Part shown: piece after piece, positions 59,938 through 64,000 of the stretch
How the letters are laid out: every line of letters starts with the position of its first letter
How positions within the stretch are numbered: the first letter of the stretch is position 1
From: Desulfonatronum lacustre DSM 10312
Lineage (GTDB): Bacteria; Desulfobacterota; Desulfovibrionia; Desulfovibrionales; Desulfonatronaceae
Length of the DNA stretch: 64,000 bases
Assembly: GCF_000519265.1 (NCBI RefSeq)
Contig: NZ_KI912608.1
Span: 1,129,665 to 1,193,664, forward strand
Direction: 5' to 3'
The notes under the pieces: model-generated
The model's input: only the letters and a program-made list of their open reading frames with translations
The model's database searches: none
What the model was told of the DNA's origin: nothing
Program-made: the position numbers and the translations under genes

Positions 59938-60110
59938 GAATGGACACCGCATGGAAGTTTGGAAGGGAGCGACGGCGATTCTACCTGACGCCTCGCGAAA
60001 TACAGCCCGGATTCAGACTGGTGTCGCCTTTTGCTCCCAGGTCAATCCTGAACCAGTGCGTGGCGGTACTGGATATAGGCGTCGCGGAAAGCGACATAGG
60101 GATCAATGGC
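59938..60110. repeat. Direct repeat copy B overlapping the mlaA 3' end
   Basis: Second copy of the repeat at 57825-57939, with the intact mlaA end. It covers the intergenic GGACACCGCATGGAAGTTTG stretch and the last codons of mlaA (stop at 60042). The two copies face the same way about 2.1 kb apart and bracket the SLC13 gene. Confidence 0.8.
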
Positions 60111-60866
60111 TGATTCCTTCATGTCCTCGTACTGTCCGATCCTGAATGATAAAGAATTGATGCGTTCATGGGCCTTCAGGGCCCATCCCAGTTCATGAGG
60201 TTCAAGGTAGGAGAGTGGTGAAAGGAAGAAATCGCCTGTCATGCCCACCGAATCGCGCAATGTCGATGGACCGAGCAACGGCCAGACAATATACGGACCG
60301 TTGCCGATCCCCCAGACGCCGAACGTTTGTCCGGCATCCTCGTGAGTGACGTTCAGGACCGGGAAGGCATCCGATATTTTGACCAGGCCGAGGAAGCCGA
60401 AGGTCGTGTTCAAAACGAAACTTCCGGTTTCCTTGGCGACCTTGTCGCCCTTGCCCTGCAACAGACTGTTCACGGCGCGCACGGGATAAGCCAGGTTGGT
60501 GAAGAAGTTTCCGATGCCGATCCTGAAGAGTTCGGGAACAACCATGGCGTACGCCTGGGCGACCGGTTTGAGCAGATAGAGGTAGAGCTTGTCGTTGACG
60601 GTGAACATGGCCCTGTTCCATCCTTCCAAGGGATCGACGACGCGCAAAGGCTTGTGCTCCTCGGCCAGGGTTTCCCATTCCTCTTCCCACCAATCGTCAT
60701 CGTCAAAATCGTCATGCCGATCCGGGCCGCCCTCTCCTTTTGCGGCAACGGTTCCCCCGTCCGCGATCATTGCGGAACCGGGACTGTTCTTTCCGGCGCA
60801 TCCGGTCGTGACAACCAGGCACGTCAGCAAAAGAACCAACGCCGCGGATGATATTTTTTTCGGCAT
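60042..60866 (-). CDS. mlaA: Outer-membrane lipoprotein MlaA (VacJ)
   Basis: 274-residue lipoprotein that removes phospholipid from the outer leaflet of the outer membrane and passes it to MlaC. The signal ends VTTGC. An acidic linker (DDFDDDDWWEEEW) is followed by the VacJ domain: DPLEGWNRAMFTVNDKLYLY, GNFFTNLAYPVRAVNSLLQG, TFGVWGIGNGPYIVWPLLGP. ATG 60866 follows GGGAAG; a TTG overlapping the mlaC stop is the alternative. Last gene of the mla operon; its 3' end is copied at 57907. Confidence 0.93.
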   Translation of the reverse strand: MPKKISSAALVLLLTCLVVTTGCAGKNSPGSAMIADGGTVAAKGEGGPDRHDDFDDDDWWEEEWETLAEEHKPLRVVDPLEGWNRAMFTVNDKLYLYLLKPVAQAYAMVVPELFRIGIGNFFTNLAYPVRAVNSLLQGKGDKVAKETGSFVLNTTFGFLGLVKISDAFPVLNVTHEDAGQTFGVWGIGNGPYIVWPLLGPSTLRDSVGMTGDFFLSPLSYLEPHELGWALKAHERINSLSFRIGQYEDMKESAIDPYVAFRDAYIQYRHALVQD

Positions 60867-60883
60867 ATCTTCCCGTCCTCTTC

Positions 60884-61510
60884 TCAATTCGCGGCCTCAA
60901 CGCCGTCTCGCAGGCTCGCGACCTTGCTCCGCAGTGATTCGAGCAATCCGTCCACACCGCTTCGATGCAGAATTTCTTCGAACTGGGTCCGAAAATTCTG
61001 GGCCAGGCTTATCCCCTCCCCATGGATGTCGTAGACCAGCCATTTTCCATTTTCCTCATAGAGCCGATACAAGACCAGGACAGGACCCTGCCTGGCCATG
61101 ACCTGGGTTTCCACTTCGGCCTTGGGGATGCGCGCCCCTGCTTCCGTGAGCAACGTTTCCTTGACGTAAATGACGTCTTCGTCGGAATAGGCGGAAATGT
61201 AATTTCGGTAGGTGCGCTCGATCAACTCCGAATACAGCGCGACGAATTGTTCTTTCTGCGAATCATTCAACTGTCTCCAGCCTCGACCGAGGGTGACGCG
61301 GGAAAGAACCTCGTAGTCAAAGGCTGCATCAACAACCTGCTTGATGCGCTCGAATTTTCCATCGATGATGTTCTGCTCCGGACTATCCGGTTCACCCAGA
61401 ATGCCGAGAACCTGATCGACCGCGGTCTGAACGGTCGCCATCGGTGAAGCGGCCAGGGCCGTGGACGCAAAAAGCAGCAGGCAGACCATCAAAATAATTT
61501 GTTTCAACAT
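60884..61510 (-). CDS. mlaC: Periplasmic phospholipid-binding protein MlaC
   Basis: 208-residue exported carrier shuttling phospholipid between MlaA and the MlaFEDB complex. The signal peptide is LMVCLLLFASTALA-ASP. FDYEVLSRVTLGRGWRQLND, YISAYSDEDVIYVKETL and WLVYDIHGEGISLAQNFRTQF are MlaC (Tgs toluene-tolerance family) hallmarks. It lies 69 bp after mlaD and 17 bp before mlaA. Confidence 0.93.
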   Translation of the reverse strand: MLKQIILMVCLLLFASTALAASPMATVQTAVDQVLGILGEPDSPEQNIIDGKFERIKQVVDAAFDYEVLSRVTLGRGWRQLNDSQKEQFVALYSELIERTYRNYISAYSDEDVIYVKETLLTEAGARIPKAEVETQVMARQGPVLVLYRLYEENGKWLVYDIHGEGISLAQNFRTQFEEILHRSGVDGLLESLRSKVASLRDGVEAAN

Positions 61511-61579: not shown

Positions 61580-62032
61580 TTATTTCTCAACGTCGCCAAA
61601 GGCGAACCGTCCGATCAGTTTTTCGATGTCCAGGGCCGGCACGGTATCCACGATGGTTTCTCCCGGACCGAGTTCGAAATCCGACCCCCCGGGAGCGATG
61701 TCGACGTATTTGTCTCCGATCAAACCGCGGGTTTTGATCGCCGCGACGGCATCATCCGAAACCGGGACCTCCTTTTCGATCCGCAAGGTCACAATGGCCA
61801 CCAGATCCGTGGGATGCAGGCGGATGCTCTCGACCTTGCCGATCCCGACTCCGGCCATTTCCACGACACTGCCCCGGTTCAGCCCGGCGGCCGAAGTGAA
61901 TCTCGCGTTGAGCAAATAGGTGTTGCCGCGCAGCAGTTCCAAATCTCCCAGCCTGATCGTCAGATACCCGACGCACAGCAGTCCAATGAGCATGAACACG
62001 CCCACGCCCGTTTCCATGGCGTACTTCTTCAT
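61580..62032 (-). CDS. mlaD: MCE-domain protein MlaD
   Basis: 150-residue inner-membrane protein with one N-terminal helix (about 3-25, ETGVGVFMLIGLLCVGYL) and an MCE domain containing FTSAAGLNRGSVVEMAGV and KTRGLIGDKYVDIAPGGSD. Six copies form the periplasmic ring of the transporter. ATG 62032 overlaps the mlaF stop as ATGA; an upstream in-frame ATG inside mlaF is less likely. Confidence 0.94.
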   Translation of the reverse strand: MKKYAMETGVGVFMLIGLLCVGYLTIRLGDLELLRGNTYLLNARFTSAAGLNRGSVVEMAGVGIGKVESIRLHPTDLVAIVTLRIEKEVPVSDDAVAAIKTRGLIGDKYVDIAPGGSDFELGPGETIVDTVPALDIEKLIGRFAFGDVEK

Positions 62033-63258
62033 ATCGTTTCCTTTTTTTCGCGTACCGGACAAACCGTTTGCTGCTCATTGTCACGAGCCACCAGGACCAA
62101 TGCCTGCAAGTCGGGGTATGCATCCACCTCCGCAACCCCCAAACTGATGCAGAAATTTCTGTAGCCGGGATGTTCCGCTCCGGATGTGCGTTTCCCCATG
62201 GTGCTGATCCGTTCGAGCATTGCCGCGCGGAAAGCGTCGATCTGATCGGAATCGGCTACCGGGAAATACGCCGCGACCTCATTTTTCCCGATCCGCACGG
62301 CTCGCCCTTGGCCGTTCAATTGGGCGATCAGTCCGTCGGAGAGGTTTTGGATGGCTCGTTGCGCCGCGATTTGGCCCACATGCTCATCCACTTCATCCAG
62401 GCCATCCAACAAAAAGAGGATGAAACCATACCGCTCGCCGAGTTGGATGCGAGGGCCAAGGCGTCTCAAACCGGCCATGAACTCCTTGCGGTTGTCCAGC
62501 CCGGTCAGGTCGTCCTTGAGCATCTCCACGCTGTTCAGAAAGGCCTGGATGTCCGGGTCGTCGGACTGCTCCAGGACAACCGGCGTGTCTTCAAAAATGA
62601 TCCCGCTGGAATCGATGATGGCCACCTTGTCCGCGATGTAGAACACATCAGGGATGTCATGGCTGACGACAACGGCCGTGAACCCCAGCTGCCGCTGATA
62701 ATGAGCGATCATGTTCAGCACGGCGTTTTTTCTGATCGGGTCGAGCCCGGTGGTGGGCTCGTCAAAGAGAACGATCTCCGGATCGGTGATCAAGGCCCTG
62801 GCCAGGGCCACGCGTTTTTGCATCCCTCCCGAGATCTGCGAGGGATATTTGCTCAGGACATCGGAGATCTCCAACTGTGTCGTCCGCTGAATGACCTTCT
62901 CCCGAATCATCGCGGACGCCAGACTCGTCTTTTCGGTCAGGGGCAGGGCGATGTTCTCGTACACGGTCATGGAGTCGAACTGGGCGTTGCTCTGGAACAT
63001 GTAGCTGAAACAACTCTTCAACTCGGACATGCTCTTCCGGCTCATGCTGGAAAGAGGTTTGCCCTTGAAGAAAATATCCCCGGAATCCGGCTTGAGCAGT
63101 CCGATGACGTGCTTCAGCAAGACGGACTTGCCGACCCCGCTCTTCCCGATGATCACCGTCACCTGTCCGCCAAGGATATCCAGACTGACGTCCTTCAGGA
63201 CGACCTTGTCGTTGAAGCTCTTGCAGACCTTTTCGAAGCGGATGACGGGTTCGGGCAT
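62029..63258 (-). CDS. mlaF: MlaF ATPase fused to a degenerate GGDEF domain
   Basis: 409 residues against about 270 for ordinary MlaF. The ABC ATPase (1-235) is complete: Walker A GKSGVGKS at 38-45, signature ISGGMQKRVALARAL, Walker B IVLFDEPTTGLDP, and switch His200. Residues about 247-395 are GGDEF-like: DDLTGLDNRKEF opens it, RIGKNEVAAYFP replaces the R-x-GGDEF-like signature, and FCISLGVAEVDAYPDL closes it. The catalytic GGDEF loop is lost, so it should not make c-di-GMP but may bind a nucleotide or protein. Overlaps mlaD by 4 bp. Confidence 0.9.
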   Translation of the reverse strand: MPEPVIRFEKVCKSFNDKVVLKDVSLDILGGQVTVIIGKSGVGKSVLLKHVIGLLKPDSGDIFFKGKPLSSMSRKSMSELKSCFSYMFQSNAQFDSMTVYENIALPLTEKTSLASAMIREKVIQRTTQLEISDVLSKYPSQISGGMQKRVALARALITDPEIVLFDEPTTGLDPIRKNAVLNMIAHYQRQLGFTAVVVSHDIPDVFYIADKVAIIDSSGIIFEDTPVVLEQSDDPDIQAFLNSVEMLKDDLTGLDNRKEFMAGLRRLGPRIQLGERYGFILFLLDGLDEVDEHVGQIAAQRAIQNLSDGLIAQLNGQGRAVRIGKNEVAAYFPVADSDQIDAFRAAMLERISTMGKRTSGAEHPGYRNFCISLGVAEVDAYPDLQALVLVARDNEQQTVCPVREKKETI

Positions 63259-63320
63259 AATCGTCCCAACTGTTTATTCAACGGACAGCTAACTGTGAAA
63301 AAACCTTATCTTGCTGTTCG

Positions 63321-63487
63321 GTATCTACTCAGCACATTTTATGTCCGCTCTTGTTCCGGCAATCGGGGTCGGGGTCGGGATCGGAATCGAAACAGGAAAA
63401 AATAAGAACGCATCCCAGCGTTTTCGATCCCGATTCCGATTCCGATTCCGACCCCGACAACAGCATTGCTTTGTGCTGAGTAGTTAC
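63321..63487. mobile_element. MITE of the GTAACTACTCAGC family, subtype A copy 2
   Basis: 167-bp element with ends GTATCTACTCAGCACA and TGTGCTGAGTAGTTAC (one mismatch), flanked by a perfect 8-bp target duplication GCTGTTCG (63313-63320 and 63488-63495). The interior GGGGTCGGGATCGGAATC / GATTCCGATTCCGATTCC palindrome and CCCAGCGTTTTCGATCCC core match the copy at 19316. It is inserted between mlaF and mlaE. Confidence 0.9.
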
Positions 63488-63610
63488 GCTGTTCGTTCAA
63501 AAACCCCAAGTGCAAGGAGAAAAAACCCAATGTCGAAGCGTATTTATTCATACATGAGAGTTTGAGCTTTTTGCAACGACACAGCAATTGGGAGTTTTTC
63601 AACGGACAGC
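63488..63610. repeat. Second palindromic repeat next to mlaE
   Basis: The ends GCTGTTCGTTCAAAAACCCC and, reverse-complemented from the right, GCTGTCCGTTGAAAAACTCC form an imperfect inverted repeat. The inner part has CCCAATGTCG and its partner CGACACAGCAATTGGG. The 16-base TTCAACGGACAGCTAA occurs at its right end and again at about 63276. The right end runs into the mlaE stop codon. The MITE at 63321 landed in its left end. Confidence 0.65.
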
Positions 63611-64000
63611 TAAAGCAGAAACGAGGTCAGAACATAGTCCACCACCAGCACGGCCACGCAGGACATGACCACCGCGGTGGTCGTGGACATGCTCACCCCT
63701 TTGGCCCCGAAGCCCCCGGCGCGCATATGGGTGAAATACCCCTGGAAACAACAGATGACCGTAACGATAAATCCGAAAACCACCGCCTTGACGAAGCCCC
63801 CGGTAATGTCCTGCATGACCACGCTGGCCTCGATCTGGGTGAAGTAGGTTCCGGCGCTCAGGTGGAGCAGCACCACGCTGGTTATGTAGCCTCCAAAGAT
63901 GCCCACCACGTCGAACAAGGCCGTCAAAAGGGGAAAGCTGATCAGGGAAGCCACGATTCGGGGACTCACCAGAAACTTGATGGGATTGATGTTCATGGTG
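63610..64000 (-). CDS. mlaE: MlaE phospholipid ABC permease (partial, N-terminus beyond window)
   Basis: The C-terminal ~130 residues of the Mla permease: INPIKFLVSPRIVASLISFP, FDVVGIFGGYITSVVLLHLS, TGGFVKAVVFGFIVTVICC and the closing KGVSMSTTTAVVMSC then VVDYVLTSFLL, all family signatures. The frame stays open through the window edge; the ATG at 63996 is internal. The stop TAG at 63610 abuts a palindromic repeat. It should pair with MlaF, MlaD and MlaC downstream. Confidence 0.94.
   Translation of the reverse strand, partial: TMNINPIKFLVSPRIVASLISFPLLTALFDVVGIFGGYITSVVLLHLSAGTYFTQIEASVVMQDITGGFVKAVVFGFIVTVICCFQGYFTHMRAGGFGAKGVSMSTTTAVVMSCVAVLVVDYVLTSFLL

Follow-up and report, generated by a model that had tools for sequence, protein, structure and literature searches.

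The assembly and regulation of Mla transporters are not fully understood; in E. coli they involve a short tail on the ATPase together with a STAS protein. In the E. coli MlaFEDB complex (PDB 6xgy, 6xbd) the 269-aa ATPase MlaF carries a C-terminal extension of ~25 aa and has the STAS protein MlaB bound to it. According to PMC7367683, this extension forms a reciprocal handshake that serves MlaF dimerisation and MlaB contact and is needed for assembly, and the function of extension-less E. coli MlaF was substantially restored by the fusion of a GCN4 dimerisation domain. The same paper states that the association of ATPase domains is regulated by C-terminal domains in other ABC ATPases, and it includes a survey of 379 ABC structures which names C-terminal hairpin, ferredoxin-like, R and TOBE domains, with GGDEF not being mentioned in that part of the text. 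One such design is MetN of the MetNI methionine transporter, in which an ABC ATPase is likewise followed by a small alpha/beta regulatory domain, ferredoxin-like and responsive to methionine.

LapD, FimX and similar proteins are degenerate GGDEF receptors. Such receptors have a GGDEF fold in which the GG(D/E)EF signature and, by inference, catalysis have been lost, and degenerate GGDEF domains are known as c-di-GMP or GTP sensors (PMC7288161). In these receptors the domain is joined to EAL, PAS, REC or membrane sensor parts, whereas in the protein described here it is joined to the ATPase of an ABC transporter. Both elements are of known kinds: GGDEF receptors of the degenerate type (PMC7288161), and regulatory domains at the C-terminus of ABC ATPases (PMC7367683). 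No description of their combination as an MlaF-GGDEF fusion was found in the literature searched, which was largely without subscription papers and preprints; within that literature, the view of the initial annotation that there is no characterised example was upheld.

The window (the whole stretch of DNA that was analysed, 64,000 nt from Desulfonatronum lacustre DSM 10312) was found to carry an mla operon with the gene order mlaE - mlaF - mlaD - mlaC - mlaA (Table 1), in which the start codon of mlaD lies inside the end of mlaF (10 nt overlap). It had been proposed from the sequence that the mlaF gene encodes an MlaF-type ATPase covalently joined to a GGDEF-type domain without a catalytic signature, and Pfam matches, predicted fold and individual residues all agree with this.

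Table 1. Features of the mlaF-GGDEF locus (positions are those of the window).
Feature	Position	Strand	Basis or remark
mlaF-GGDEF fusion ORF	62029-63258	(-)	ATG 63258 to stop 62029, uninterrupted, 409 aa
MlaF-type ABC ATPase part, residues 1-238, core reaching ~246	62545..63258	(-)	Pfam ABC_tran 1.8e-32, residues 21-170
Degenerate GGDEF domain, residues 248-399 of the fusion	62062..62517	(-)	Pfam GGDEF and AF2 fold
DDLTGLDNR, N-terminal GGDEF motif (DxLTGLxNR), retained	62488..62514	(-)	Sequence
RIGKNEV where R-x-GG(D/E)EF is expected, catalytic signature lost	62275..62295	(-)	Sequence
mlaE, permease, C-terminal part; 268-aa gene runs past the window	63610..64000	(-)	Pfam MlaE 3.9e-38
mlaD, MCE domain protein	61580..62038	(-)	Pfam MlaD 8e-21
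mlaC, periplasmic lipid chaperone	60884..61510	(-)	Pfam MlaC 2.9e-40
mlaA, outer-membrane lipoprotein	60042..60887	(-)	Pfam MlaA 1.6e-67

The identity of the ATPase as MlaF is indicated by its intact motifs, by its mlaE, mlaD, mlaC and mlaA neighbours and by its nearest solved structures. Walker A, the signature SGGMQ, Walker B (FDEP) and the H-loop (His200) are all present, and among 65 homologs, the window protein included, 64-65 retain each of these motifs. The model of the full-length fusion (pLDDT 88.7) is closest to the MlaF structures of E. coli, P. aeruginosa and A. baumannii, with that of E. coli being the best match. The NCBIfam MlaF equivalog NF008809 was the best-scoring family, yet its score of 194.2 bits is below the curated cut-off of 441; this model describes the 270-aa protein of the E. 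coli type. The ATPase had initially been described as complete and as ending near residue 235. Its completeness was confirmed, but the border had to be moved, as MlaF structures superpose up to residue 246 of the window protein (residue 248 of P. aeruginosa MlaF). This end approximately coincides with the start of the extension of E. coli MlaF. The likeness to the E. coli system thus covers the ATPase fold, the motifs and the mlaE/mlaD/mlaC operon, while from the junction onwards a GGDEF domain of ~160 aa is found in place of the short extension, and MlaB was not found in the operon.

The second domain was matched by Pfam GGDEF (PF00990) over residues 248-388 (1.2e-8, 35.3 bits), and its scores of 35-38 bits are above the gathering cut-off of 23.8. 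Fifty nine of 63 homologous C-terminal domains matched this family individually (best 5e-25), and a joint profile of these domains matched solved diguanylate cyclases (E 7e-25). Because the fold list of the full-length model was filled by ABC ATPases and said little on the second domain, the domain was folded alone by AF2 on a 63-sequence alignment (pLDDT 89.3, pTM 0.84). All of the best 50 PDB rows returned by Foldseek for this model were GGDEF or diguanylate-cyclase structures, structure comparison with GGDEF structures gave Z scores of up to 16.0 over ~150 residues, and the top VIA matches were GGDEF throughout. The comparison of a predicted structure with GGDEF folds, a check put forward in the initial annotation, therefore confirmed that the isolated domain is predicted to adopt the GGDEF fold. 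MetN was aligned by Foldseek with the full-length fusion over part of both domains; its regulatory domain belongs to another family and was not among the best 50 rows for the GGDEF domain alone.

The three sequence features initially noted in this domain, namely the GGDEF start motif, RIGKNEV and ISLGVAEV, are all present in the translated ORF. Residue statistics were taken from 65 aligned full-length fusions. In none of the 65 has GG(D/E)EF kept its GG pair, and the window protein reads GKNEV. The column of the first metal-binding Asp holds T, S or R and that of the guanine-binding Asn holds scattered residues, both columns having been assigned by hand to what we take to be the PleD pattern. 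An active diguanylate cyclase is ruled out by the loss of the GG pair together with these unconserved positions, and on alignment evidence the cyclase is judged to be catalytically dead in all 65 members. What has been retained includes the T (48/65) and G (60/65) of the DxLTGL motif, the Gly of 'GH', the Arg preceding the signature and the Gly of the last strand. Two cysteines, near window residues 366 and 400, are conserved over much of the phylum, in 35/56 and 43/56 of the non-gap members, respectively, the first of them being displaced in the window protein (C370). The pair is a possible metal or redox site.

The fusion is not peculiar to a single genome: the search of related genomes which the initial annotation had suggested revealed a phylum-wide architecture. 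Of the 297 genomes sampled in the phylum (Desulfobacterota according to record titles), 34, belonging to 16 families, had the fusion when rows with a query_to of at least 350 were counted. Among 247 genomes sampled in the order, 37 carried full-length fusions and a further three carried fusions cut by contig ends. The relatives are ~390-415 aa in length, and fusion-bearing loci are labelled Desulfobacterales, Desulfobacteraceae, Desulfovibrio, Desulfohalobiaceae and delta-proteobacteria. Among the best 80 loci of a contig search the clear fusions are Desulfobacterota or delta-proteobacterial; an Opitutales protein from the same search (L106) ends in a longer tail in which no GGDEF motif can be recognised. 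The fusion is an old phylum-wide architecture in sulfate-reducing bacteria and their relatives; in its place other bacteria have a short tail plus a helper protein that is separate. In much of one bacterial phylum an unrelated domain, built into the ATPase, seems to take the position of the E. coli tail.

A quick tree of the ATPase part required four changes of label between fused and plain forms, against 40.8 in shuffles, and grouped 54 of the fused rows into a single starred clade. Since the fused forms cluster strongly and plain MlaF proteins are nested among them or sister to them, the tree fits a single old fusion followed by losses. In ten usable close pairs (two further pairs were saturated) dN/dS was 0.02-0.18 in the ATPase part. 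The GGDEF part gave 0.06-0.59, with a value of 0.135 for the window protein and its genus ortholog. By this measure purifying selection acts on the GGDEF domain, which diverges more quickly than the ATPase. Plain MlaF proteins very close to the fused ATPases (L209-L220) are solitary in several genomes of one family (f5), which includes a Desulfovibrio-titled record, and no mlaE, mlaD, mlaC or mlaA was recognised within 3 kb of them. One locus (L176, G378:C15:1-12000) has two MlaF-GGDEF genes in a single Mla operon, one after mlaE and one after mlaA.

GGDEF domains tend towards dimer formation. As an integral part of the pump that moves phospholipids between the two cell membranes, the dead GGDEF domain probably serves in its assembly or control. 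In the reading that we prefer, and to which we assign a probability of about one half, the domain is an assembly or regulatory part that holds the two ATPases together and replaces both the MlaF extension and MlaB. Each domain would pair with its counterpart on the second ATPase, the pair would keep both ATPases together on MlaE, and the domain would offer a surface for adjusting ATPase activity, so taking over the work of the E. coli 'handshake' and of MlaB. This reading is favoured by the location of the junction, about where the dimerising extension of E. coli MlaF begins, by the ability of GCN4 to stand in for that extension and by the governing of ATPase association by C-terminal domains in other ABC ATPases (both PMC7367683), as well as by the retention of the domain across the phylum under apparent purifying selection. 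If the domain does hold the ATPases together, it would be a natural counterpart of the GCN4 rescue experiment. Its rapid divergence and the presence of only three nearly invariant positions weigh against assembly, as these could reflect a loose structural role only.

The replacement of MlaB was considered from the gene neighbourhoods. At 41 fusion loci mlaE adjoins mlaF and is followed by mlaD and usually by mlaC and mlaA. The MlaE proteins of fusion operons are ~260-320 aa, the full 268-aa mlaE product of the window operon is without a STAS domain, and in a STAS_2 search none of the matches listed lay inside fusion operons, which is in keeping with the assembly reading. A very divergent MlaB in these operons is still conceivable, given that the STAS_2 result refers to the matches listed. 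Some plain MlaF systems of the phylum likewise have no STAS partner; for this reason the absence of MlaB is no more than suggestive of replacement. In the same genomes paralogous MlaE proteins carry a fused STAS domain. These systems, too, are MCE-type ABC transporters equipped with a cytoplasmic accessory domain, the difference being that the STAS domain is attached to the permease, and the GGDEF domain of the fusions to the ATPase. One of them lies at the start of the window, where a STAS-fused MlaE (G000:C1:1129646-1130689, window ~1-1025) adjoins a plain MlaF (G000:C1:1128859-1129584) situated just before the window.

Assembly or regulation is better supported than its main rival, the coupling to a second messenger that was suggested initially. 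In the latter case the degenerate domain would bind c-di-GMP at the I-site, or GTP or (p)ppGpp in the old active site, and would switch phospholipid transport on or off, much as the C-terminal domain of MetN acts with methionine. The existence of degenerate GGDEF sensors (PMC7288161) lends this some weight, and the domain occupies the same position as the C-terminal regulatory domains of other ABC ATPases (PMC7367683, and the MetN matches). The I-site motif RxxD, the inhibitory site for c-di-GMP, is complete in seven of the 11 members of one clade, and its Asp is kept in all 11. It is missing ahead of the signature from the 54 other members, the window protein among them, so that an I-site common to the whole family is ruled out, and here the fusions differ from the known degenerate receptors. 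The RxxD of the one clade may itself have been inherited from the donor domain. The metal- and guanine-binding positions are unconserved, and the window protein does not have these residues. A c-di-GMP-type site is plausible, by its motif, only in the clade that keeps RxxD. Gating of the Mla ATPase throughout the phylum by a cyclic dinucleotide or guanine nucleotide acting directly on the pseudo-cyclase is accordingly a tentative proposal, with the RxxD clade as its likeliest setting. Were a nucleotide sensed, second messengers would be linked directly to the lipid balance of the outer membrane. The fusion is also of interest in being old and conserved, and since the ATPase is soluble and its two domains are cleanly delimited, it is directly testable.

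It is doubtful that the domain serves as a docking platform, recruiting a partner such as an EAL, STAS or cytoskeletal protein with neither a ligand nor a role in ATPase dimerisation. A poorly conserved old active site and fast divergence would suit a lineage-specific partner, but nothing points to a given one in neighbourhoods that were searched for Mla genes only. More improbable still is a relic of a one-time fusion, tolerated without a present role: the faster divergence of the domain and its apparent loss in lineages with nested plain MlaF would fit, but an intact frame and a GGDEF fold over 16 families are unexpected for an unused domain, and dN/dS is well under 1 in most usable pairs. 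A frameshift or a mistaken joining of mlaF to an adjacent GGDEF gene, named in the initial annotation as grounds for refutation, has nothing in its favour and can be dismissed, because the gene sits in a single-contig genome, a 78%-identical ortholog of equal length occurs in one other genome of the genus, and the same architecture and length recur in frame across dozens of independent genomes.

Upstream of the fusion gene, mlaE and mlaF are separated by an insert of ~320 nt (window 63274-63613) bounded by a 19-nt near-perfect direct repeat which includes the end of mlaE. The ~168-nt core of this insert contains GGATCGGAATCG-type inverted repeats and, because it has about 40 genomic copies, the insert looks like a dispersed MITE-like repeat.
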